From Streptomyces sp. CA-210063 (GTDB lineage: Bacteria > Actinomycetota > Actinomycetes > Streptomycetales > Streptomycetaceae), in NCBI RefSeq assembly GCF_024612015.1, contig NZ_CP102512.1:3782001-3846000 (forward strand): a DNA stretch of 64,000 nt, given 5' to 3'. Below the pieces are notes generated by a model. That model searched no databases. It worked only from the letters and a program-made list of their open reading frames with translations, and was not told the origin of the DNA. Numbering within the stretch: the first letter of the stretch is position 1; every line of letters starts with the position of its first letter. Shown here piece by piece: positions 49,304 to 62,278 of this stretch. The position numbers and the translations under genes were made by a program.

Positions 49304-49410
49304 AGCCGGTCCACAGCGTGGTGCCGCCGCGCGATCCCCCTGCCGAGAAACGCTGTACCGAGTGGCTGGACCACCTGGCCCAGCGCCGGCAGAAGGAGAC
49401 AGAGCGATGA
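49304..49410 (+). pseudogene. C-terminal relic of a Gp49/HigB-type toxin
   Basis: The last part of a toxin-like protein is readable: STAWCRRAIPL in one frame, then AEKRCTEWLDHLAQRRQKET in the next, with a frameshift near 49341. Its stop overlaps the start of the antitoxin (ATGA), the normal layout of a higBA-type pair. No earlier part of the toxin was found, so the toxin is dead. Confidence 0.5.
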
Positions 49411-49724
49411 CCAGCTTCCACCCATGGGACGAGGTCAAGGAAGAGGTCTTCGACACCGAGGACCTGGACGCGATCGTGGCGGGTGCCCGGCGGATGGTCT
49501 CGGAGGCGCGGGCGCACCGGCTCGCCGAGATGCGCAGGCAGCTCGGGCTCACCCAGCGGGAGGTCGCCGACCGTATGCACGTACGGCAGGAACGGGTGTC
49601 CGCCATCGAGCGCGGCAGGACCGAGTCCGCCGAGGTGGGGACGGTGGCGGCCTACGTCGAGGCGCTGGGCGGGGAGCTGGAGATCGTCGCGAACTTCAAC
49701 GGGACCCGGGTGGTGGTGGCATAG
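49407..49724 (+). CDS. XRE-family antitoxin-like regulator (HigA type)
   Basis: A 105-residue DNA-binding protein. The helix-turn-helix is at about residues 45-80: LGLTQREVADRMHVRQERVSAIERGR, followed by TVAAYVEALGGELEIVANFNG. Residues 1-40 are an acidic helical region (WDEVKEEVFDTEDLDAIVAG) that would contact a toxin. AAGGAG lies about 10 bases before the ATG. The toxin gene upstream is only a relic, so this antitoxin is orphaned and may now act as a plain regulator. Confidence 0.82.
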   Translation: MTSFHPWDEVKEEVFDTEDLDAIVAGARRMVSEARAHRLAEMRRQLGLTQREVADRMHVRQERVSAIERGRTESAEVGTVAAYVEALGGELEIVANFNGTRVVVA

Positions 49725-49799: not shown

Positions 49800-50591
49800 A
49801 TGAACGCCCTGAGGAAGGCCGCCGCCGCACTGTCGGCCGCGGCCGCGATCCTGATCGCGATACCCCCCACCGCCTCGGCAACGCCCGCCCCGCATCAGAC
49901 GTACGGCGGCACGCTCGTCCGGGAGAACTTCAATCACCTCCCCCTCGGCCCGGTGACCAAGGGCCGGGGCTGGACCACCGACACATCCAACGGCACCCTG
50001 ACCGTCGAGCCCAGCGCCGACGGCCGGGGCCGCGAACTCCGCATCCGCACCGAGGGCAACGGCCGCGCCTTCGTCGTCCTGTCCGATCTCGCCCCGCCCG
50101 GCAACAGCTTCTGGGCCCGGATGCGGCTGCGCGTGGCCGAGTTCCCGACCGCCCCCGACTGGGCCCACTGGACCCTCGCGGAGGCCTCCGGCGCCGATTC
50201 CCCCACCCTCGTCCGCCCGCTCGGTGGCCAGTACGCGCCCACCGACAAGGGCAACTTCTATGGCGTGGGCTCCGACCTGGGTCCGACGGGCGACTGGACC
50301 AACTGGAAGACCTCGGCTCCGGCCGTCGCCGGGAAGTGGCAGTGCGTCGAGTTCCACCTGGACGCCACCGACAACCGGGTCACCGTCTACTTCGACGGAG
50401 TCGAACAGCCCGACCTCACCGTCTCCACGAAGCAGCACGGCGGCACGGCCGACGACTTCGTCTTTCCTCGCTTCGACGAGCTCAAGTTGGGGTGGCAGCT
50501 GTATCAGGCGGACCCTGACCCGTCGTCGTACGACGTCCGTCTGGACGACATCGCGCTGAGCGCGCGGCGAGTGGGCGGCTGCGGCGGCTGA
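49800..50591 (+). CDS. Secreted lectin-like (LamG/concanavalin-fold) protein
   Basis: A 263-residue exported protein. The signal peptide MNALRKAAAALSAAAAILIA ends near ASATPA. The mature part is a beta-sandwich: GTLVRENFNHLPLG, WTTDTSNGTLTVEPS, FVVLSDLAPPGNSFWARMRL, a WQCVEFHLDATDNRVTVYFDG segment and YDVRLDDIALSARRVGGCGG. The two Cys (in WQCVE and at the C-terminus) may form a disulphide. These hydrolase-associated lectin-like domains usually bind polysaccharide; no catalytic residues are claimed. It has no strong ribosome site; TACCGT at 49751 is a weak -10. It converges with the immunity gene at 50606. Confidence 0.75.
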   Translation: MNALRKAAAALSAAAAILIAIPPTASATPAPHQTYGGTLVRENFNHLPLGPVTKGRGWTTDTSNGTLTVEPSADGRGRELRIRTEGNGRAFVVLSDLAPPGNSFWARMRLRVAEFPTAPDWAHWTLAEASGADSPTLVRPLGGQYAPTDKGNFYGVGSDLGPTGDWTNWKTSAPAVAGKWQCVEFHLDATDNRVTVYFDGVEQPDLTVSTKQHGGTADDFVFPRFDELKLGWQLYQADPDPSSYDVRLDDIALSARRVGGCGG

Positions 50592-50605: not shown

Positions 50606-51592
50606 TCAGTCGTCGAGGACGACCATGTTCGTCGGCGGCTGACCGGGCACCGGCGAAGGGCCGCGGAAGTCACCCTGGACCAGCACATCACGGACCACAC
50701 CGTGGACGGCCCGCACCGCCTCACTGTCGTATTGCTGGAAGGTGGGGGTGGCCTGGAGGAGGAGTGAGCCGTTCGGGAGGGACGACACCGCCGAAAAGGC
50801 GCCCGTGGCCCCCAAGGCCTCCTTTCCGCCCAGGAGTTCGGCGACTCCGGCGGGCACGACCATGAGCCATGAGTAGCCCCTGAGCAGGGTGCGCCACTGC
50901 GGTGCGTTGCTCACCGGGTCACTCGGCCGGCCCCGCAGTCGGCTCTCCAGTTCGGTGGCGCCGCCGCTGCGGCGGTACGAGACATGGCCGAACACCACGT
51001 CGTACCGGTCGCAGGCCCAGCGGACGGCGGCGAGCAGGCGCTCGTGCTCGGCGGCCGTCGTCCCCGGAGCCACCAGGGCCGCGGTGTCCACGTGGAGGCC
51101 GAGCTTCACGAATTCCGGCAACTCCTCCTCGAAGACGACCGTGAAGGAGAGGTCAGAATTGCCGACTTCCCCCTTCTCCGAGAAACGGCCGATCTTCACG
51201 CCTGCCGATTCGGGCTGCTCGGAAAGGTGTCGGTCCAGCCAGGGGAGCGTATCGGCGGTGTAGGGGTTGTACAGCACGTCGAAAGTCCCCTGGGGAGAGA
51301 CCTGGACATATCCCCAGAGGCCTTTCCGGTTCTTCCTGGGAACACTGTCGGCGACCCGCGAGAATCCTTTCGGGGAGAACTTCACGTTCTCCGGCAGCGC
51401 GTCGACCGCTCCTTGCCGGTCGTATTCCCGGACACCGCCGGTGAGCCAGCCGAGGGCCGCTTCCCGAAGTTTCTCCGGTTGTTCCGCGTGGACCGTGAGT
51501 TCCACGAAGAGACCGTGACTGACGTCGAAATCGACCGAGTTGAGTGCGCCCACTGTGAACCGCCCAAGGATCTCACTGGCTTTTGGGCGCAC
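50606..51592 (-). CDS. Candidate immunity protein of the RHS toxin
   Basis: A 328-residue soluble protein, without signal peptide, starting 12 bp after the stop of the RHS toxin gene and therefore cotranscribed with it. It begins RPKASEILGRFTVGALNSVD and contains WGYVQVSPQGTFDVLYNPYT, a strand-rich middle, and GYSWLMVVPAGVAELLGGKEAL and VSSLPNGSLLLQATPTFQQY in the second half, which resembles DUF3396-type immunity proteins only in outline. The composition of the first 100 codons is less G+C-biased than its neighbours. In polymorphic toxin loci the gene next to the toxin tail encodes the antidote; that is the basis of the call. Confidence 0.72.
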   Translation of the reverse strand: MRPKASEILGRFTVGALNSVDFDVSHGLFVELTVHAEQPEKLREAALGWLTGGVREYDRQGAVDALPENVKFSPKGFSRVADSVPRKNRKGLWGYVQVSPQGTFDVLYNPYTADTLPWLDRHLSEQPESAGVKIGRFSEKGEVGNSDLSFTVVFEEELPEFVKLGLHVDTAALVAPGTTAAEHERLLAAVRWACDRYDVVFGHVSYRRSGGATELESRLRGRPSDPVSNAPQWRTLLRGYSWLMVVPAGVAELLGGKEALGATGAFSAVSSLPNGSLLLQATPTFQQYDSEAVRAVHGVVRDVLVQGDFRGPSPVPGQPPTNMVVLDD

Positions 51593-51604
51593 TCTACCCG
51601 TCCG

Positions 51605-54600
51605 CTACTCCAGCCCGAAGGGGCTGGTGAACATCTTGCCGATCACGTAGATGGCCATCGACGCGGCGGCTCCCAGGGCAATGTCCCGTTGCTGGTCCGG
51701 GGTGGGCTGCCAGGCCTGGATCTTCTCCAGGACCGGCACCGATTCACGCTGGTAGCCGTCGGGTCCCTTGCCGCGCGGTGGCATCTTCCGTGTCCACCAG
51801 CCGATCACACCCTTGTATTCCTCTCCGGTGCGGGTGGAGCCCTTGCGCTGCTGTGTGGACTCCGCCACCAGTTGCTTCTTCGGGTCCAGCGGGTCCAGGG
51901 TCGTGATCTGGGGAAGGTTGTTGCCCCGTTCGACGGTCCGGAATGTGCCTTCCTTCCGCTCGATCTTCCGCAGCGCGTTGATGTAGCGGTCGAGAGTCGC
52001 GGGACCGTCCAGTTCCGCTGTCTTCGCCGACTTCACCTCCCACACGAAGATGGTGTCCGGGAAGATCACGACGACGTCGGCGAAACCGCCCTTTCCGTTT
52101 TTGCGCTGTGCTCCCGGAATGTAGTACTCGGTCTTCACCTGTACGTCCGGGTTGTGCCGCCAGAGGAACCTCAGATAGATGGCCACCGCCGCGACCGCGG
52201 CATTGTGGCGGAGCCGGTCCGCGGCCATTTCCTTGCCGTCACGACCCTTGCTGGTGTTTCCGGAGCCGTTGTTGGTGGATCCGCCACCGCCGCCCTCGTA
52301 GTAGAGGATGAGGCCGGTCGGGTCGCTCTTGCTGATCGGGCTGCCGTTGCTGTACGTGTACCCGTTCATCTGCAGCGGGTCCGCGATGTCGATGACCGGG
52401 TCGGCCGACAGGAAGCGGCCGGACGCCTGGTCGTACTCGCGGGCGCCGATGTGGGTCAGGCCGGTGGCCGCGTCGTCGATGCCGACGCCGAGGTAGCCGC
52501 GCCGGTTGGGCCAGGTCGACGGCTTGGGGCCACGGACCTCGCCGTACGGCTTGAAGGCGCGGCGGGTGACCGTCTGGCCGCTCGCCAGATCGACGGTCGT
52601 GTTCGCCGTGCCGAGGTGGTCGGCGAGCAGGACGGTGAGCTTGTGTCCGGTGGTCGCGCCGTTGGTGGTGGTGCGGACCGCCGTGGGGGCGCCTGCCTGG
52701 GCATAGGCACGTGCGGCGCGGGTGATGGTGCCCGAGGAGTTCGTGGTCAGCTCGGTCTCGCCCAGGTGGAGGGTCGAGCCCGAGGGGGAGTTCTCCAGGA
52801 CGCGGTTGCCGTCGGCGTCGTAGACGTACGTCGTCTTGGTGCCGTCGTCGGTGATCGTGTCGAGCTTGTTCTCGGACGTCCAGGTCAGGTCCTGGGTCGT
52901 GGTGGCCAGATCACGGACCTCGGTGTTGCCCGCCGCGTCGTAGGTGTAACTGCTGCCCTTGCCGGACGGGGTGGAGCCGATCCACTTCACGGTGTGCGGC
53001 TGCGCGCTCTCGTAGCCGTACGTGTAGCCGACGTTCTTCGTCGCGTCCGCCGGGTCGTGCTCCGTCATCGTGGCCCGGTTGCCGAGCCAGTCGAAGGTGA
53101 AGGACTGGCGGTAGGCGGTGGCGCCGGTGGAGACCGTGGCCGTGTCGGGAGCGGCGGCCGCCAGGGTGGAGCTGAGGGAGGCGTCGGGGCCCGACACGTC
53201 GGTCGACGCGTCCGGGGCGTCGGCCACCGGGCCGGACGAGGTCTCGTAGTCGGTGCGCGGGCCCCATGTGGTGCCGTTGGACGACTTGCAGCCGGTGCCG
53301 TTGCCGGTGGGGGCCGCGTTCGAGGTCCAGGCGTTCACCAGCTCGCCCATGGCGTCGTACGTGAAGCACTGGGTGTCCCACGTCTCGCCGGAGGCCTCCG
53401 CCAGCTTGCGGGCGTGGGAGGTGATGATGCCGGAGGCGTCGTACGAGTAGTAACTGTCGCTGATGCGGTGCGGGCCCGAGGTCTCACGGTCCGCGACCGT
53501 GCGCTGGAGCTTGCCGGTGCGCGGGTCGACGAAGTTGGTCGTCCACACCCGGTACGGCTGGGAGCCGGAGACCGTGCGCATGACCTCGCCGAACGGCGAG
53601 TACGTGACGTCGGAGGTGTACCAGGCGAGACCGGACGTGGACTCGGCCAGACCGTCGCCGTTGTAGCGGGTGACGACCTTCTCCCTCGCCAGCCCGCCCA
53701 CGGCGGGCATGGTGACGGACTCCGGCCGTCCGGTGACCTTGGTGTACGTGTACGCGTAGGCGTAGGTGCCGGCGACGCCCGTCGTCATCGTGTTGGCGGG
53801 GATGACCGTCTCACGGCCGGTGGGCCGGTATCCGGCGTCGTAGCCCGTGACGCGGTTGATGTAGTCGCCGTTCGCGGTGTGCCGGATCGAGGAGACCAGC
53901 CGGCCGAGCCCGCCGGGCAGCGAGTCGTAGGTGAACTCCTTGGCCGGGGTGGCGGTTTCGGAGCCCTCCCGGACCTTGGTGACCCGGCCGAGGACGTCGT
54001 ATTCGGTGTACGTCGTCTGTGACCGGGAGGTGGTCACCTTGTTGGGCCGGTCGGCGTCGTCGTACCAGGTGTCCGTCTTGCCGGTGTCCGGGTCCGTGGC
54101 GGAGGTGACCCGGCCGCGGGCGTCGTAGATGTACGACCAGATGTTGCCGGCCGGGTCGGTGACCCTGCTGCGGTTGCCGCGGGAGTCGTACTCGTAGGTG
54201 GTCGCGCGCCCGGTGGTGCTGGAGGAGTCGTCCTGGCTGTAGTGGTGGACCGAGGTGACCCGGCCGAGGGCGTCGGTGTAGGTCCGGGTCCTCGGGGTGG
54301 TCGAACCGGCCGGGTTCACATAGGTGCTGGTGTCGGAGTGGGTCGTGTACGTCGCGTACCTGTAGTCGCCGTCCAGGTAGGTCGACAGGCGGACCTGGCG
54401 TTCCATGCCGTCGTAGCGAGTCTTGGTCCAGCTGGGGATCTGAGCCTTGGACCGGGGGGCGAACAGCTCGGCGGCCGGCTCGCCCTTGGCCAGGTACTTG
54501 CCGGTCTGCTCGTCGACGAGGCCGTGGTCGTTGTACGTCGTGTCGCTGACGACGCGGCCGGGGCCGTGGGCGTCGGTCTGGACCTGGACCTCGCGCATCA

Positions 54601-57600
54601 GGCCGTCGTAGACGGTGACCTTGCTGCTGTAGGTGCCGTCGTCCTTGAGCGACTTGACGGTGACGGCGGCGGGGCGGGTCTGGGCGCTGGTGGCGATCGC
54701 GCTCTGGTAGGCGATCACGACGTCGGGGGCCGTCGCGGTCGACCGCGCCGCCGTCCAGCCCTTCACCAGCCGGCCGAGGGCGTCGTACTCGGTGCGCGTC
54801 GTCCGTCCGTTGGCGTCGGAGACCGTCAACGGGAGGCTGCGTCCCGGATCGAAGGTCGTCGCGGTGGCGTGGCCCTTGGCGTTGATCAGCTTGCTCGCGG
54901 TGAGCGGGCCGCCGCCCTCGGGCGTGTACTGGGTCTCGGTGGTGCCCTGGCCGGGCTTGGTGACGGTACGCACTCGGCCGAGGTCGTCGTAGGTGGTGTC
55001 GGTGACGAGCGAATACGCCGATCCGGTGCCGTTGGTCTCGGCCACCGAGGTGATCTGCCCCTTGGTCGGGGTGGCGCCGTGGGCCAGCTTGTCGTAGGTG
55101 GTGCGGACCGCCTTCTTCAGCTGGGTGGCGGGGTCGGCGGCGTCGTGGCCCGCGCAGGAGGTGCCGGTGGTCCTTTCCTCCTTGGGCAGCCCGATCAGCC
55201 AGACAGAGGTGTTGTGAACGTAGGTGGTTCGGGTGCAGGTCCGGTCGGAGAGGGTCTCGCCGGAGCCGTTCGGCTTGACCATGGCCGTCTCGACCTGGAC
55301 GGGCAGACCGTAGGTGTCGTCGACCTCGGTGAGGGTGCGGACGGACCGCCAGCTCGTGTCCCCGACCCGCTGGATCTCGTCGGCGCGCTTGACGCCGCTG
55401 CGATGCGCGAGCATCGGGTCCATGTCCGCGCCGTTCTCCGCCTCCCGGGCGCGGGACGCGGTCTGCTTGGACCAGGGGAAGGTCAGTGTCCGCTTCTGCC
55501 AGCGCTTGTCGGAGTTGAGGTGGACGATGCTCTCCGCCGTCATGCCGGCGTACTGCGGGGCGTCGTCGGCGATGAGCGTGTACGCGCCCGTGGAGTCCTT
55601 GATCTCGCCGCCGACGCCCTGGAAGTAGCGCGTCTCCACATACGACTGGGCCTGCGGGTCGCCCTGCTGGGAGCTGGTCTTGCTGCCCTTGGTGACGGCG
55701 ACCTGGCGGTAGCCGCGCCAGTCGCTGTGGGTGCGCAGGGACGGGCGGGTGAACTCGTCGTCGTTCTTCGCCCAGGCGGGGCCCGTGTAGGCGTACTGGG
55801 TGACGACGGGCTTGCCGCGGGAGGTGACCTTGTCGGTCTCGGTCACGGTGTGGACGACGTACTTGTTGAACCAGGACTTGGCGGGTGTCTTCTCGTCGCC
55901 GTCCGGGGACCAGCGGACCGGGTAGCAGGTGCCGTTGTTCCTGCCCTTGTCCTCGGACGGTTCGCTCGTGCAGCCGCCCTTGTACTCGACCTCGATGTCA
56001 CCGCCGTACTCGGTGGCGACGGTGCCGATGCGGGGCCGGGTGAAACCGGGGCGCTGGTCGTTCGCTCCGGTGAGCACGAGGTTCGGGAGCTGGCGGTCCC
56101 GCAGCCGGGTGCGCAGCGGTGAGCCCGAGCCGACGGAGTACTCGGCGAAGCTGACGCCGTCCGTGTGCTGGAGGGTGCCGGTGCTGTCCCCGGGGGCGTA
56201 GCCGCGGCGGGTGATCGAGTTCAGCCAGAGGCCCGGGGAGGTGTCGTACCAGTCCTCGGGGAACGACTGGTGGAGCTGGTAGGTGTCCACCTTGCCCAGG
56301 CCGGTCTGGCCGGCGCGGGCCGCCTTCGTCGTCACCGTGTCGAGGCGCATCTGGGTCCAGAAGGACGGGAAGGCCGGGCACAGCTTCGACGTCGACTTGC
56401 AGTTGAGGTTGCCGGGGGTGTCCCACCAGGGGCGGTAGGCGCCGGGGTCTGCGGTCTTGGCGAAGTTCGCCGCGTCGCAGGCCGTCTCGGACTTCAGGCA
56501 GCGCTGCCGGACACCGAACTCGACGGTCGCGGACGGCTTGGTGAGGTCCGCGCGCATGCCGTACTCGATGGTCGTCGGGTAGGCGTAACGGTCGTACTGC
56601 TCGGGGGACTTGAACTTCTTCTTGACGGAGTAGTAGTTCGTCTCCTGCTTCCAGTTGACGACCAGGGTGTTGCCGTACACGTCGACGATCTTGTCGAGAC
56701 CCCAGCGCCAGGCCTGCTTCTTGCCCGCGCCGCAGCGGGAGTCCGCGAAGGCGGTGGCGTGGCAGGGTTCGCCCGGGTGGTTGCCGAAGACGGGGACGGT
56801 GGACACCGAGTCCGTGTCGGCGTGACCGCCGCCGACCTGGTTGAGACCGAAGTAGTGCTTGGTGCCGTCCGGGGTCGTGACGATCCAGTACTCGCCGTTG
56901 TTGTCGCCGTTGCTGCCGCCGGTGCGGCGCTCGACGCGGGTGCCGTCGTCCTGCTGCGGACGGTAGACCTCGGTGTCCGTCTCCGGATCGCTGCCGGAGG
57001 GAGCGTCCCGCACCAGCTCCGTGGTCTTGCCCGCCAACGACATCACCGCGTTGTACGACGCCCAGCACAGGTCGGCCGTCTTGTCCTTCTTGGCCGTGTT
57101 GTTGGGCGTGCCGGACTTCATCGCCTTGCGGTCGTCCTGGCAGGAGCGGTAGCGGCGCTCGATGTGGCCGGCGTCGTAGTCCCAGCCCTCACCGATCCAG
57201 GAGACCTGGGGGGAGGAGACCGCGGTACGGCCGTCCACCGTCTGGGAGTTGTAGTTGAAGGCGACGCTCGGGGCCGGGCCCGCCGGGGCAGCCGGGATCG
57301 TCAGCGGGTACGACCAGGTGAAGGCGCCCGACGAACCGCCGGCCTCCCACTTGCCGTTGGCGACCAGGGGCGTGGCCTTGAAGGTGCCGCCCGCGCCGCC
57401 GCCGGAGTCGACCGCGCCGACGACGGCGGAGTCGCCGGTCGCGGCGACCGGGGTGGCGGAGGTGCTCGACGTGCGGAACGCCGCCTGGGCGACGGTCGGC
57501 CCGTCGGACTCGGCCACCTCGGCCGCCGCGGCGGGAGTCACCGTCCCGTCCGCCGCCGTGTCCACCGTCGCCGTGATCGACTGGGTCTTGGTGTCGTTGG

Positions 57601-58285
57601 TGGTCTCCAACTCCTCGTACTCCTGGCACGCCTCGACGTCCGGCGTGGTCAGGTAGCACTCGGGGAACTGGACGAAGCGCAGCCGGGAGGCCCAGTCGGC
57701 GCCGTAGAGGTTCCTGAACTTGGCGTAGTCGAGCTTGACCGAGATCGGCACCGAGCCGGTCGCGGGGGCCTGGACCTTGACGACGGCGCCGTCGACACCC
57801 TGGGAGACGGCGGCGGCGCGGTCGTAGACCTGGACGCTCCAGGTGCCGGTCGGGGCGGCCTGGTCGGGGGCCTGGCCGAGGCTGACAGGGAGGTCTTCGA
57901 CGGGGGTGACAGCGACCTGCTGGGCGGTCGCGGCCGTGCGGGCCGAGGCGGGGCTGGTGGTGGCCGCGCCGCCGAAGCTCACCGAGCCGGCGTCGGGGGC
58001 CGGTGCCGTGGCCGTGCCTGAGGGGGCCTGCTCCAGATCTTCGGGGACCTCGACCTTCAGGGTCTCCAGGTCCCGCTCGAAGGCCTCACCTGTGATCGGC
58101 TCGTCCTGGTCGAGCGCCTCCAGGTCCAGGGTCTCGCGGCCCTTCTCGGCGACCGCCGGATCGGGCGGCAGCGCCACCGACTGCGCGGGCAGCAGCCCCA
58201 CGAGCAGGGCCGCGCCGAGAGTGGGTACAACGGCCGCGCGCAGCAGACGCGTGCGACGGCGGACATGCGAAAAGCGACCGAACAC
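51605..58285 (-). CDS. Secreted RHS/YD-repeat polymorphic toxin with C-terminal PD-(D/E)XK-like nuclease
   Basis: A 2226-residue exported protein. A basic start FGRFSHVRRRTRLLRAAVVP and hydrophobic core ending AQSVALPP form a Sec signal peptide. An N-terminal beta-rich part of about 250 residues precedes a SpvB/Tc-like segment (VSWIGEGWDYDAGHIERRYR), then many RHS/YD repeats (YDSRGNRSRVTDPAG, YDALGRL, YDDLGRV) end in the core boundary SDPTGL. The last 234 residues (51605-52309) are a distinct toxin: GGFADVVVIFPDTIFVWEVKSA carries the D...ExK nuclease core, and IALGAAASMAIYVIGKMF is a hydrophobic tail. GTG at 58285 follows GGGGGGACCTCGCC. A candidate immunity gene lies 12 bp downstream. Confidence 0.92.
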   Translation of the reverse strand: MFGRFSHVRRRTRLLRAAVVPTLGAALLVGLLPAQSVALPPDPAVAEKGRETLDLEALDQDEPITGEAFERDLETLKVEVPEDLEQAPSGTATAPAPDAGSVSFGGAATTSPASARTAATAQQVAVTPVEDLPVSLGQAPDQAAPTGTWSVQVYDRAAAVSQGVDGAVVKVQAPATGSVPISVKLDYAKFRNLYGADWASRLRFVQFPECYLTTPDVEACQEYEELETTNDTKTQSITATVDTAADGTVTPAAAAEVAESDGPTVAQAAFRTSSTSATPVAATGDSAVVGAVDSGGGAGGTFKATPLVANGKWEAGGSSGAFTWSYPLTIPAAPAGPAPSVAFNYNSQTVDGRTAVSSPQVSWIGEGWDYDAGHIERRYRSCQDDRKAMKSGTPNNTAKKDKTADLCWASYNAVMSLAGKTTELVRDAPSGSDPETDTEVYRPQQDDGTRVERRTGGSNGDNNGEYWIVTTPDGTKHYFGLNQVGGGHADTDSVSTVPVFGNHPGEPCHATAFADSRCGAGKKQAWRWGLDKIVDVYGNTLVVNWKQETNYYSVKKKFKSPEQYDRYAYPTTIEYGMRADLTKPSATVEFGVRQRCLKSETACDAANFAKTADPGAYRPWWDTPGNLNCKSTSKLCPAFPSFWTQMRLDTVTTKAARAGQTGLGKVDTYQLHQSFPEDWYDTSPGLWLNSITRRGYAPGDSTGTLQHTDGVSFAEYSVGSGSPLRTRLRDRQLPNLVLTGANDQRPGFTRPRIGTVATEYGGDIEVEYKGGCTSEPSEDKGRNNGTCYPVRWSPDGDEKTPAKSWFNKYVVHTVTETDKVTSRGKPVVTQYAYTGPAWAKNDDEFTRPSLRTHSDWRGYRQVAVTKGSKTSSQQGDPQAQSYVETRYFQGVGGEIKDSTGAYTLIADDAPQYAGMTAESIVHLNSDKRWQKRTLTFPWSKQTASRAREAENGADMDPMLAHRSGVKRADEIQRVGDTSWRSVRTLTEVDDTYGLPVQVETAMVKPNGSGETLSDRTCTRTTYVHNTSVWLIGLPKEERTTGTSCAGHDAADPATQLKKAVRTTYDKLAHGATPTKGQITSVAETNGTGSAYSLVTDTTYDDLGRVRTVTKPGQGTTETQYTPEGGGPLTASKLINAKGHATATTFDPGRSLPLTVSDANGRTTRTEYDALGRLVKGWTAARSTATAPDVVIAYQSAIATSAQTRPAAVTVKSLKDDGTYSSKVTVYDGLMREVQVQTDAHGPGRVVSDTTYNDHGLVDEQTGKYLAKGEPAAELFAPRSKAQIPSWTKTRYDGMERQVRLSTYLDGDYRYATYTTHSDTSTYVNPAGSTTPRTRTYTDALGRVTSVHHYSQDDSSSTTGRATTYEYDSRGNRSRVTDPAGNIWSYIYDARGRVTSATDPDTGKTDTWYDDADRPNKVTTSRSQTTYTEYDVLGRVTKVREGSETATPAKEFTYDSLPGGLGRLVSSIRHTANGDYINRVTGYDAGYRPTGRETVIPANTMTTGVAGTYAYAYTYTKVTGRPESVTMPAVGGLAREKVVTRYNGDGLAESTSGLAWYTSDVTYSPFGEVMRTVSGSQPYRVWTTNFVDPRTGKLQRTVADRETSGPHRISDSYYSYDASGIITSHARKLAEASGETWDTQCFTYDAMGELVNAWTSNAAPTGNGTGCKSSNGTTWGPRTDYETSSGPVADAPDASTDVSGPDASLSSTLAAAAPDTATVSTGATAYRQSFTFDWLGNRATMTEHDPADATKNVGYTYGYESAQPHTVKWIGSTPSGKGSSYTYDAAGNTEVRDLATTTQDLTWTSENKLDTITDDGTKTTYVYDADGNRVLENSPSGSTLHLGETELTTNSSGTITRAARAYAQAGAPTAVRTTTNGATTGHKLTVLLADHLGTANTTVDLASGQTVTRRAFKPYGEVRGPKPSTWPNRRGYLGVGIDDAATGLTHIGAREYDQASGRFLSADPVIDIADPLQMNGYTYSNGSPISKSDPTGLILYYEGGGGGSTNNGSGNTSKGRDGKEMAADRLRHNAAVAAVAIYLRFLWRHNPDVQVKTEYYIPGAQRKNGKGGFADVVVIFPDTIFVWEVKSAKTAELDGPATLDRYINALRKIERKEGTFRTVERGNNLPQITTLDPLDPKKQLVAESTQQRKGSTRTGEEYKGVIGWWTRKMPPRGKGPDGYQRESVPVLEKIQAWQPTPDQQRDIALGAAASMAIYVIGKMFTSPFGLE

Positions 58286-58765
58286 GGCGAGGTCCCCCCG
58301 GACCACTCAAGGCGGGCCAGGAACGGACCACGCGTGATGGCGTATCAGATGCCGGAGATTCTGTGGCGCTCTTGTGAAGTTCCGCTAGATCGGCCGTGTG
58401 TATGTGATGACCGTCACGGTTCGTAAGCATGGATAACGGCCAGTGAAGGCCAGATCCGAGCTATTGCGGGGTAAGGGAAGGAGTCTCCGCTACGTGATCA
58501 ACCACGCCATTCACCAGTTCCCCTGGCAAACGAGCTCCGAATCACGGCAGTTGACGCAGTGTTTGCGGTGATTTGCCCTCAGGAGGCTTGTCCTGGACGG
58601 CAGTTGTCGGCCGATCGCCCCGGCTTCATGTACGGATGAACGGCTTGATCCACTCAATCGCCGCTCCGGCTGCGAAGCGTGACGACGGCCCGCTCATAGG
58701 TCATCATCGGCTCGCCCGGCGAGGCCTGTCCCGCCGGTTCCAAGGGGGGAAGGGGAACTCGCCCG
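58286..58765. other. 480-bp divergent region between RHS toxin and DNRLRE genes
   Basis: Holds the promoters of two very large divergent genes. TTGACG at 58551 is a -35 candidate for the plus-strand gene. Both start codons follow a G-run and a CTCGCC block: GGGGGG-ACCTCGCC before the RHS gene and AAGGGG-AACTCGCCCG before the other. No further gene is evident. Confidence 0.5.
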
Positions 58766-61700
58766 ATGACGCGCAAGGAGCGCAACTGGCGTCGTGTGCC
58801 CGGCAGACGGACCACGGCCGCCGTACTCACCGCGGCGCTCGCCGCCACCGGCATCACCTTCATCGGCCTCGGCCTGGACGAGCCCGGCTCGCGGGGCGGG
58901 ACGAGCGGGGACGGGAAGGCGAAGCCGGTCACCGAGGCCGCCGCGCTCACGCGGGCGGCGAAGACCGGGAAGTCCGTCGAGGTCACGGCGGCGCGTACGG
59001 CACGGTCCACGACGTGGGCGCGGCCGGACGGCCGGATGGCGAAGAAGCTGTACTCCTCGCCGATCCGGGCCAAGGTGGGCGGCGAGTGGAAGCCCATCGA
59101 CTACGACCTCCACCGCACGGCCAAGGGCTGGGAGCCCAAGGCCACGAACGCGCGGATGGTGTTCTCAGCGGGGTCGAAGGCGGGCGGTTCAGGGGCGGGC
59201 GGTTCGAAGGCGGCGCGCGACGGCGAGGAGCGCGCCTCCCGAGCCGGCTCCGGCGTACGCCGCGTCTCCCTCGTCAAGGGTGTACGGGCCGCCGCGGACG
59301 CGGACGCGAGCCCCCTGGTCACCCTCAGCGTCGACGGCTACACCATCCAGCTGACCTGGCCGGGCGCCGTCCCCGCCCCCGTCATCGACGGCTCCCGCGC
59401 GCTGTACCCGGAGATCTTCCCGGGCGCCGACCTCGTGCTGACGGCCGACGACGAGGGCTTCGCCCAGCTGCTGGTCCTCAAGAACCGGCAGGCGGCGGCC
59501 GATCCACGCGCGCAGCAGCTGTCGTACGGCATCACCTCGCCGGACCTGACCTTCCGTCTGGACCCGGTGACGAGCGTGCTGAGCGCGGAGAACGCGTACG
59601 GCAACGAGGTGGCGGTCTCGCCGACGCCGCTGATGTGGGACAGCACCGGTTCCCCGGCGGTGACCGACGGCGGGGTCGGCGCCACCGCGCAGCCGACGAC
59701 CGAGGAGAGCCCGGAGCCCAGCACACCGGCGTCCGACGAGCCGAGCGACAGTGCGAGCCCGACCGAGGAGCTGATCGAGACGGACGAGCAGGGCGACACC
59801 ACACCCGAGACGCTTCCGGCGGCCACCGACGGCCCCGAGCCGACGGTGTCGGAGTCGCCGCTTCCGTCCGCGCCGGCCGAGCCGACGCCCGCGCCCACGC
59901 AGACCGGCTCGGCGGCGACGCTCGGCCTGTCCGGGCTCGACGGCCCCTCGCCGGACTCGCGCGGTGAGCTGGTCGAGGTCGACCTGTCCGGCGCGAACTG
60001 GGTGCTCACCCCGAACCTGGAGTTCCTGAACGACCCGGCCACCAAGTACCCGGTGTTCGTGGACCCGTCGGTGAAGAAGCACACCCAGAACTGGACCACC
60101 GCGTACAGCCGGCACCCCACCGCCACCTTCTACAACGGCAAGGGCTTCAACAAGGGCGGTACGCACGAGGCCCGGGTCGGCTTCGAGTCGGACACCTGGG
60201 GCACGTCGCGCTCGTACTTCAACATCGCCTTCGACAAGGACCTCAAGGGCACGAAGATCACGAGTGCGAAGCTGCGCATGCTGGAGACGTACTCCTGGTC
60301 GTGCAGCTCGCGGGCGATGAGCGTGCACCTCACGGGCGCGGTCAACGGGAAGACCAACTGGAAGAACGCGCCCAAGCTGACCGACGGCAACAAGTTCGCG
60401 ACCAAGAGCTTCGCGCACGGCTACAAGTCCGGCTGCCGGGACGCGTACGAGACCTTCGACGTGAAGAAGGCAGCGCAGAAGCGGGCCGACGAAGGCAAGG
60501 ACAGCATCACGTTCGGCCTGCGGGCGCGGGACGAGAACTCGCAGTACTCGTGGAAGAAGTTCCAGGCGAACGGCGACAACGCGCCCGTGCTGGAGCTGGT
60601 CTACAACCGCAAGCCGGCCATCGACTCCAAGTCGCTCGACCTCGGCCCGGACGCCAAGTGCACCACCACCGAGCCGTACGTGCGCATGGGCTCGGGGAAC
60701 CTGACGTTCACCGCGCGGGGCTCCGACAAGGACAAGAACCTCGACTTCCTCGACTTCGACTTGTGGGCGACCGGCAAGTGGGACACCACAGGCGACCTGC
60801 TGGGCTCCACCGGCAAGGTCTCGGTCGGCGGCGACAAGGAGGTGGCGCTGCGCACCACGAGCGGCTTCGCCACCAGCAAGCTCACCAACGGCACCCTCTA
60901 CTCCTGGCGGGTGCGGGCCCTGGACGACGCGAACGCCAGCTCCGGGTACGCGCCGGCCAAGACGCCATGCCGCTTCGTCCTCGACACCACCGCGCCCAAA
61001 CCGCCCAAGGTCAGCTCCACCGACTTCCCGAACGCCGACGGCGCCGAGAACGGCTTCGGCAACGACGCCGAGGACGCCAACTGGTCCACCAAGAAGTTCG
61101 GCACGCCGGGCTCCTTCACCGTCCGCGCGCTCAACACGGACGTCGTCCGCTACGAGTACGGCTTCAACTCGGCGAGCTACCCGTTCAGCCTGAGCCGCAC
61201 CTCCGGCACGGCCACGACCGTCAGCGCGACCCTCGCGAACGCGAAGCCGCCGACGGCAGGGCCGAACGTGCTGTACGTCCGTGCCGTGGACGCCGCGGGC
61301 AACCCCTCGCATCCGACGAAGTACTTCTTCTACGTCACCCCGCGCGACCAGGCCGACTCCCCCGGCGACTTCACCGGGGACAAACTGCCCGACCTGATGG
61401 TGGTCACCGACGCCGGCAACCTGGCCCTGTACCCCTCCCAGGCCACCAACGACCTGGCCAAGGGCTCCGGTGACCTCGACTACTCGATGCCGGGCGCCTA
61501 CCGGGCCAACCCGGCCAAGGACCCGAACGGTGACGACCTGCCGCCCTTCGTCGCCGCACCCTCCGGCCATTTCAAGGGTGCGCTGATCACCCACAACGGC
61601 GACATCTACGGCGGTGACGGCCTCCAGGACCTGGTCGTCCGGCTGGGCGACAAGCTCTGGGTGTACCCCGGCGACGGCTACGGCGCGGTCAACATCGACC

Positions 61701-62278
61701 GCCGGGTGGAGATCCTCCTCCCTGCGGGCGCCCCCAGCCCCGCCTCCCTCACCCAGATCGTCTCGGCCGGCGACGCCACCGGGGACGGCCGCACGGACTT
61801 CTTCGCCACCATGGGCGACGAGCTCTGGGCCTTCACCGGCTACCACGGCGCCAGCATCGACCAGGCGATCCGGCTGTCCGGCTCCGCCTGGACCGAGCGG
61901 GACATCGTCAACGTGGCGGACCTCTCCGGCGACGGAGTGACGGACCTGGTGTACCGCACGGACGTCTCCAGCCGGCTCCTGCTCCGTAAGGGCATCAAGG
62001 CGAGCGCCGGCGGTACCGAGCTGACCTCGCTGGGCTCCGCCGCGGCCTCGGCCGACGGCGAGGACGGTGTCTACGCCACCGCCGGCTGGGGCAGCTCCAG
62101 CATCTACCTCATCGCCGGCACACCGGACGCCAACGGTGACTCCGTCCCCGACATCTGGGCCGTCCGCACCGACGGTACCGTGCGCTTCCACACCGGCAGC
62201 CGAACGGCCCTGTCCGGCCCGGGCACGGAGGTCATCGGCGCGGCGAGCTACTGGAAGAACCGGATCGCCATCGGCTGA
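58766..62278 (+). CDS. Secreted DNRLRE and FG-GAP repeat protein of the RHS locus
   Basis: A 1170-residue exported protein. The signal peptide has a basic head (RKERNWRRVPGRR) and hydrophobic TTAAVLTAALAATGITFIG. Residues 85-210 hold a conserved beta-rich module (KLYSSPIRAKVGGEWKPIDY, PGADLVLTADDEGFAQLL), then a Ser/Pro/Glu-rich linker to about 405. A DNRLRE-type domain follows at 420-610 (KYPVFVDPSVKKHTQNW, RSYFNIAFDKDLKGTKITSA), next fibronectin-like strands, and four or five FG-GAP/VCBS calcium-binding repeats in the last 300 residues (DFTGDKLPDLMVVTDAGNLA, GDATGDGRTDFFATMGDELW). This architecture regularly accompanies RHS toxins in Streptomyces; it may aid secretion or adhesion. A 17-bp-stem terminator follows. 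Confidence 0.9.
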   Translation: MTRKERNWRRVPGRRTTAAVLTAALAATGITFIGLGLDEPGSRGGTSGDGKAKPVTEAAALTRAAKTGKSVEVTAARTARSTTWARPDGRMAKKLYSSPIRAKVGGEWKPIDYDLHRTAKGWEPKATNARMVFSAGSKAGGSGAGGSKAARDGEERASRAGSGVRRVSLVKGVRAAADADASPLVTLSVDGYTIQLTWPGAVPAPVIDGSRALYPEIFPGADLVLTADDEGFAQLLVLKNRQAAADPRAQQLSYGITSPDLTFRLDPVTSVLSAENAYGNEVAVSPTPLMWDSTGSPAVTDGGVGATAQPTTEESPEPSTPASDEPSDSASPTEELIETDEQGDTTPETLPAATDGPEPTVSESPLPSAPAEPTPAPTQTGSAATLGLSGLDGPSPDSRGELVEVDLSGANWVLTPNLEFLNDPATKYPVFVDPSVKKHTQNWTTAYSRHPTATFYNGKGFNKGGTHEARVGFESDTWGTSRSYFNIAFDKDLKGTKITSAKLRMLETYSWSCSSRAMSVHLTGAVNGKTNWKNAPKLTDGNKFATKSFAHGYKSGCRDAYETFDVKKAAQKRADEGKDSITFGLRARDENSQYSWKKFQANGDNAPVLELVYNRKPAIDSKSLDLGPDAKCTTTEPYVRMGSGNLTFTARGSDKDKNLDFLDFDLWATGKWDTTGDLLGSTGKVSVGGDKEVALRTTSGFATSKLTNGTLYSWRVRALDDANASSGYAPAKTPCRFVLDTTAPKPPKVSSTDFPNADGAENGFGNDAEDANWSTKKFGTPGSFTVRALNTDVVRYEYGFNSASYPFSLSRTSGTATTVSATLANAKPPTAGPNVLYVRAVDAAGNPSHPTKYFFYVTPRDQADSPGDFTGDKLPDLMVVTDAGNLALYPSQATNDLAKGSGDLDYSMPGAYRANPAKDPNGDDLPPFVAAPSGHFKGALITHNGDIYGGDGLQDLVVRLGDKLWVYPGDGYGAVNIDRRVEILLPAGAPSPASLTQIVSAGDATGDGRTDFFATMGDELWAFTGYHGASIDQAIRLSGSAWTERDIVNVADLSGDGVTDLVYRTDVSSRLLLRKGIKASAGGTELTSLGSAAASADGEDGVYATAGWGSSSIYLIAGTPDANGDSVPDIWAVRTDGTVRFHTGSRTALSGPGTEVIGAASYWKNRIAIG

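Follow-up and report, generated by a model that had tools for sequence, protein, structure and literature searches.

The window analysed here, a stretch of 64,000 nucleotides from the genome of Streptomyces sp. CA-210063 (G000, a single contig of 10.86 Mb; positions C1:3782001-3846000), very probably encodes an exported RHS polymorphic toxin with a nuclease tail, together with its TsiV-type antidote. The toxin gene (51605..58306) encodes a protein of 2233 aa, and the antidote candidate P0002 (50606..51592; 328 aa) lies directly downstream. All features described below are located on the minus strand unless otherwise indicated. Computation supplied the fold models and family links, the linkage and co-variation of the pair, the evidence of cassette swapping, and the helix together with its enrichment; toxicity, substrate, cleavage, delivery and protection are inferred.

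Tail Boundary and Predicted Nuclease Domain

The product of the toxin gene has the characteristic organisation of RHS polymorphic toxins, with YD/RHS repeats and, directly ahead of a variable tail, the end of a conserved core. It matches the RHS_repeat (PF05593, E 8.4e-18, Pfam), YD_repeat_2x and Rhs_assc_core (TIGR03696, E 6.5e-14, NCBIfam) profiles, and the last residue matched by Rhs_assc_core is residue 1999. This agrees with the preliminary description of the locus, made from the letters alone, in which a 234-residue tail followed the SDPTGL motif (residues 1994–1999; 52327-52310). The tail occupies residues 2000–2233 (51608..52309), and the stop codon follows directly. The earlier numbering of the tail (1993–2226) fits the database copy of the protein (P0050; 2226 aa, 7 residues shorter) and not the open reading frame of the window. 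The end of the core (residues 1967–1999; 52310..52408) contains two Asp motifs, SADP and SDPTGL, and is a predicted self-cleavage motif. It resembles the motif of TseI, in which an aspartyl-protease consensus precedes the C-terminal cut (PMC7170923). By analogy, the core would cut itself after SDPTGL and free the tail.

The G+C content at third codon positions (GC3) is 0.959 for the core, against 0.847 for the tail and 0.821 for the neighbouring gene. The lowest core windows of the same lengths as the tail and the neighbour have GC3 values of 0.919 and 0.936, respectively, and both the tail and its neighbour are below them, so the lower G+C bias noted earlier holds.

The two motifs GGFADVVV (residues 2073–2080) and WEVKSA (residues 2089–2094), pointed out previously, are indeed present in the tail. 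They belong to a predicted PD-(D/E)XK nuclease domain (approximately residues 2024–2174; 51785..52237) with H2034, D2077, E2090-x-K2092 and Q2133. H2034, A2076-D2077, W2089-E2090-x-K2092 and Q2133 are invariant in all 15 aligned tails (alignment A2, the window's tail included), and therefore the motif is not a chance one. This alignment comprises 15 of the 20 distinct tails; P0056, P0063, P0066, P0067 and P0069 were left out. The AF2 model of residues 2017–2233 (pLDDT 79.1) consists, in model numbering, of helix 8–32, strands 40–48, 57–65 (with D61) and 69–77 (with E74 and K76), helix 78–103 and strand 108–111. Thus, the alpha-beta-beta-beta-alpha-beta core of PD-(D/E)XK enzymes, with D...(D/E)xK in strands 2 and 3, is present in the model.

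The best rows of the fold searches were the R2 endonuclease domain, the N.BspD6I nickase, McrBC and EndoMS, and the top matched chains were mostly PD-(D/E)XK superfamily enzymes, with modest scores. TnsA, which is assigned to a VRR-Nuc subfamily (PMC9635880), was a weak row (E 0.039), and TseV had no row among the matches listed. The profile and structure searches proposed in the preliminary description gave a divided result: the nuclease fold was found, whereas no match at E<=1 was obtained for the VRR-NUC profile (PF08774) in the 15 tails or for the Tox-REase Pfam models in the whole RHS protein or the 15 tails. A match of the A2 profile to gelsolin among the PDB sequences (E 0.036–0.05, positions 61–116) was rejected as chance, because the fold search yields nucleases. 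The model, the fold matches and the invariant motif uphold the initial reading: the tail is modelled as a metal-dependent PD-(D/E)XK nuclease with a predicted active site of D2077, E2090 and K2092, which H2034 probably assists.

The TsiV-like Neighbour and Its Co-variation with the Tail

The spacer between the toxin stop and the antidote start is 12 nt (51593..51604), as was described. If the GTG codon 17 (51544), which is located near the start of many homologues in alignment A1, is the start, the spacer is 60 nt. The protein was previously said to match nothing closely; this does not stand, as 47 database relatives with 46–96% identity were found, mostly unnamed or named "hypothetical protein". 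The TsiV profile (PF11876) does not match P0002 alone at E<=1, while it matches 33 of the 38 members of the antidote family, with the best E of 2.8e-5. Besides P0002, the A1 alignment contains 37 of the 47 homologues; ten were excluded, near copies and short sequences among them. One homologue carries a TsiV domain annotation in the database, and a search of the whole own genome with PF11876 gave no match at E<=0.001. The antidote model has the TsiV fold, its best fold match is PA0821, and known immunity proteins are among the matches. By family profile and fold, the product of 50606..51592 is a remote TsiV (DUF3396) protein. A search of the PDB with the P0002 sequence alone gave no match at E<=10. 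Matches of the A1 profile to a designed protein (E 0.026) and a receptor (E 0.82) in the PDB were taken as chance, and weak NCBIfam matches of A1, a photolyase and others, were rejected. On the plus strand, a Cip1/laminin-G-like protein, secreted as judged by eye, is encoded convergently with the antidote gene (49800-50591), and a helix-turn-helix regulator is encoded at 49407-49724.

In all six named Streptomyces tail loci (L002–L007), an antidote homologue lies downstream in the same orientation, at a distance of at most 455 nt; a different gene occupies this position in the seventh tail locus, from Actinoplanes (L008). A profile search of 392 genomes of the genus revealed the tail in 13 genomes and the antidote in 32, with adjacent matches in nine (G000, G253, G196, G172, G028, G283, G291, G157 and G322). 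As seven tail and five antidote candidates were scored per genome, the absences are soft. Six of the nine genomes (G172, G028, G283, G291, G157 and G322) form clade B, whose antidotes are shorter than those of clade A, to which the window belongs. Four clade B tails compared with clade A tails were 20–28% identical to them, and the two clade B antidotes scanned gave weak TsiV matches (E 0.007 and 0.0027).

Distances between tails correlate closely with distances between antidotes (Mantel r 0.973 for 11 pairs and 0.978 for nine pairs; p 0.0001). The split into two clades raises this value, and within clade A alone r is 0.907 (p 0.0041, seven pairs). For the core and the antidote, r is 0.09 (p 0.26, 11 pairs), 0.375 (p 0.051, nine pairs) and, within clade A, 0.327 (p 0.029). 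The nine-pair rerun omits L004 and L006, whose cores were poorly cut and, in L006, whose RHS frame is also shortened; L007 (antidote present, but missed by too strict a text pattern), G028 (short core) and G291 (broken) did not enter the Mantel comparison. The pairs are not independent, as the window is nearly duplicated in G253. The window's protein shares 75–76% identity with those of G157 and G322 in the core, but 25% and 21% in the tail; hence, one cassette has replaced another on a carrier that stayed conserved. These three proteins are a clear natural example of such exchange. The tail and the antidote are exchanged independently of the core, as expected of RHS polymorphic toxins, and the swapped tail module suggested earlier is thereby borne out. 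The idea of a dedicated partner gene is likewise supported by adjacency, co-variation and the TsiV-like profile and fold.

Other Neighbours, Decayed Loci and Possible Orphan Antidotes

Several related tails are followed by other genes. In G359, an intact-looking tail precedes a small gene (182 aa) similar to that of G212 (L053), where the second half of a tail lies behind transposase-like sequence and is followed by a 165-aa gene whose product matches no Pfam family. After the G263 tail comes a gene for a DUF1877 protein (E 1e-4, 23.0 bits; cut-off 22), and after the Actinoplanes tail one for a DUF4304 protein (E 1.3e-5, above the cut-off). In G401 (L172), which belongs to another family of the class, the gene after the tail has no profile match. 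By their position alone, these five neighbours would be antidotes. No clear partner gene was found at the G237 tail locus. At L052, L053, L055, L008 and L172, it appears as if antidotes had been replaced (by unmatched, DUF1877 or DUF4304 proteins) and the nuclease kept. A class-wide search with A4 gave matches in four of 394 genomes (the own genome, G291, G401 and G375); the G375 match (L173) was judged unrelated after its locus was read. A third protein search gave five proteins.

No tail match was found in 23 of the 32 antidote-positive genomes. In ten loci of these genomes (L062–L071), no nuclease motif was detected near the antidote with patterns that miss divergent toxins. The TsiV-like genes of the 23 genomes may lack a partner toxin altogether, as orphan antidotes, or may belong to toxins that escaped detection. 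Some toxins have decayed naturally, as has the half tail of G212. In G343 (L046), the antidote lies next to an RHS remnant and shares an open frame with it. In G291 (L059), the frame of the nuclease tail is broken and the antidote beside it is intact, and the tail of L004 (Streptomyces sp. TRM68367) has a stop codon ahead of the C-terminal helix.

The C-Terminal Hydrophobic Helix

The tail ends with a hydrophobic helix (residues 2203–2227; 51626..51700), a feature that the preliminary description omitted. It corresponds to helix 187–211 of the AF2 model, which is of low confidence (block pLDDT 45–52), has a hydropathy of 1.56 and ends six residues before the C-terminus. Each tail was scored by the highest hydropathy of any 19-residue stretch in its last 70 residues, with a lenient threshold of 1.0. 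This value is reached by 31 of 34 family tails and by none of 59 complete other long RHS tails of the genus (control maximum 0.91). The 34 rows, 20 proteins (P0050–P0069) and 14 loci, include some duplicates, so the counts were also clustered: 15 of 18 family tails and 0 of 54 controls reach the threshold at 70% identity, and 8 of 10 and 0 of 47, respectively, at 50% identity (Fisher p 2.7e-8). The misses are P0068, P0069 and L055. L059 (broken frame) and L004 (internal stop) were left out, as were L002, L005, L007 and L011, taken as represented by protein entries. The control consists of 58 of the 60 top-ranked RHS frames of at least 2000 aa in a capped list (G017:C291 and G022:C239, near contig ends, were skipped) and two own-genome stretches, minus L124, which is cut by a contig end; it is non-random and favours high-scoring RHS cores. 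In the own genome, where the window's protein is one of nine RHS core matches, the tail end of another RHS locus (L119) has a different (D/E)xK-like motif, GIEVKGG, and no C-terminal hydrophobic helix.

Clades whose neighbours differ also have the helix, with hydropathy values of up to 2.35 (Actinoplanes) and 3.05 (G401). With values of 1.04–1.68, the clade A helices are borderline as transmembrane ones, and a value of 1.25 occurs within the antidote P0002, whose fold looks soluble; for this reason, the helix is called hydrophobic and not transmembrane. The RHS shell of Tse5 can hold and deliver a membrane-active tail (PMC10684867), and on this basis a role of the helix in target entry is tentatively proposed. 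The helix might be a built-in membrane-entry element shared by a whole superfamily of RHS nuclease tails in actinobacteria: the shell would keep the greasy helix soluble during export, and the helix, once released, would insert into the only membrane that a Gram-positive neighbour has, bringing the nuclease in without an injection machine. It would be a part of the cassette that is kept while the antidote family (TsiV-like, DUF1877, DUF4304 or unmatched) is replaced. It is possible, though doubtful, that the helix does not act on the target cell and instead anchors the exported protein in the membrane of the producer itself or closes off the RHS shell. With a hydrophobic stretch so close to its end, an exported protein could stay membrane-held; however, the helix departs with the tail if the core cuts itself after SDPTGL, and the 59 other RHS tails that lack such a stretch indicate that anchoring or shell closure by a helix is no general need of RHS proteins.

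Predicted Export, Likely Substrate and Proposed Mechanism

At the N-terminus of the RHS protein (approximately residues 1–46; 58169..58306), an Arg-rich start and a hydrophobic stretch at residues 21–39 (hydropathy peak 2.04) look, by eye, like an export signal. A PADLOC scan gave no match, and a PHROGs search gave one unnamed family across the repeat region and one further weak match. The divergent neighbour of the RHS gene on the plus strand (58766-62278) encodes a protein of 1170 aa with FG-GAP repeats and a signal peptide noted by eye.

In the proposed mechanism, the RHS core would form a shell that encloses the tail and, as in other RHS proteins, frees it by the cut after SDPTGL. The C-terminal helix may help the freed tail to bind or cross the target membrane, which is the weakest step. 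Inside the neighbouring cell, the metal-dependent nuclease would cut nucleic acid. In the producer, the TsiV-type neighbour would bind the nuclease beside its active site and block the substrate, as proposed for TsiV3 and TseV3 (PMC9635880). The tail and the antidote would move jointly as a cassette behind conserved RHS cores.

DNA is moderately favoured over RNA as the substrate. That the same toxin–antidote pair acts on RNA, for example tRNA, is rather unlikely. RHS toxins commonly carry RNase tails, and the fold searches also list RNA-cutting superfamily members such as bunyavirus cap-snatching endonucleases; however, the best rows by Foldseek and Z are mostly DNA enzymes, MGME1 and TnsA in addition to the R2 endonuclease domain, N.BspD6I, McrBC and EndoMS. 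TseV3, a characterised partner of a TsiV protein, also cleaves DNA (PMC9635880). The broken relatives in L004, L059 and G212 could suggest that the RHS protein is an adhesin, with a tail that has become inactive or serves as a binding domain; this is highly improbable, given the catalytic motif that is invariant in the 15 aligned tails, the window's own included, and the paired antidote that is retained and co-varies. A role of the neighbour as a chaperone or as a helper in export, which its adjacency, strand and short spacer would allow, is scarcely credible: the neighbour's divergence tracks the tail more than the core (r 0.98 against 0.38), other genes occupy its place beside other tail clades, and its fold matches known immunity proteins.

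Relation to Known Systems and Significance

Polymorphic toxins whose tails have a restriction-endonuclease fold are an established class (PMC3482391). The same holds, in type VI systems, for TsiV antidotes that act against PD-(D/E)xK effectors (PMC9635880). The closest parallel is TseV3/TsiV3, where a PD-(D/E)xK nuclease gene also adjoins a TsiV-family immunity gene and PA0821 is likewise the best fold match of the antidote (PMC9635880). Unlike TseV3, whose carrier is a PAAR/type VI protein, the tail described here is carried by an RHS protein of an actinobacterium with a likely signal peptide; it also lacks a VRR-NUC match and has H in the first helix and the C-terminal hydrophobic helix. The main text of PMC9635880 contains no mention of "Streptomyces". 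The Tox-REase-1 to 10 tails, several of them on RHS carriers, share the restriction-endonuclease fold and D/ExK/Q patterns with the present tail (PMC3482391), which none of their Pfam models matches at E<=1; DUF3396 is not mentioned in the part of that source considered. The antidote is less similar to TsiT of the TseT/TsiT pair (PA3907/PA3908, Imm52) than to PA0821, as judged by Z. TseT is a Tox-REase-5 toxin, and no Tox-REase-5 profile match was found in the 15 tails. Imm52 is listed with Tox-REase-5 (PMC3482391). Tse5 is also an RHS shell with a membrane-active C-terminal tail; however, Tse5-CT is itself a pore former (PMC10684867), whereas here a predicted nuclease domain precedes a single hydrophobic helix.

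Among the open-access literature matches listed, no paper connects either Streptomyces or exported RHS toxins with TsiV/DUF3396. The helix, which is typical of this tail family and absent from the 59 other RHS tails, offers a testable handle on how Gram-positive RHS tails enter the target cell; it is the surprising part of the system and more worth an experiment than the nuclease. The TsiV-type immunity known from type VI systems of Gram-negative bacteria is extended by this locus to exported RHS toxins of actinobacteria, which suggests that one antidote fold follows PD-(D/E)XK nucleases across delivery systems.
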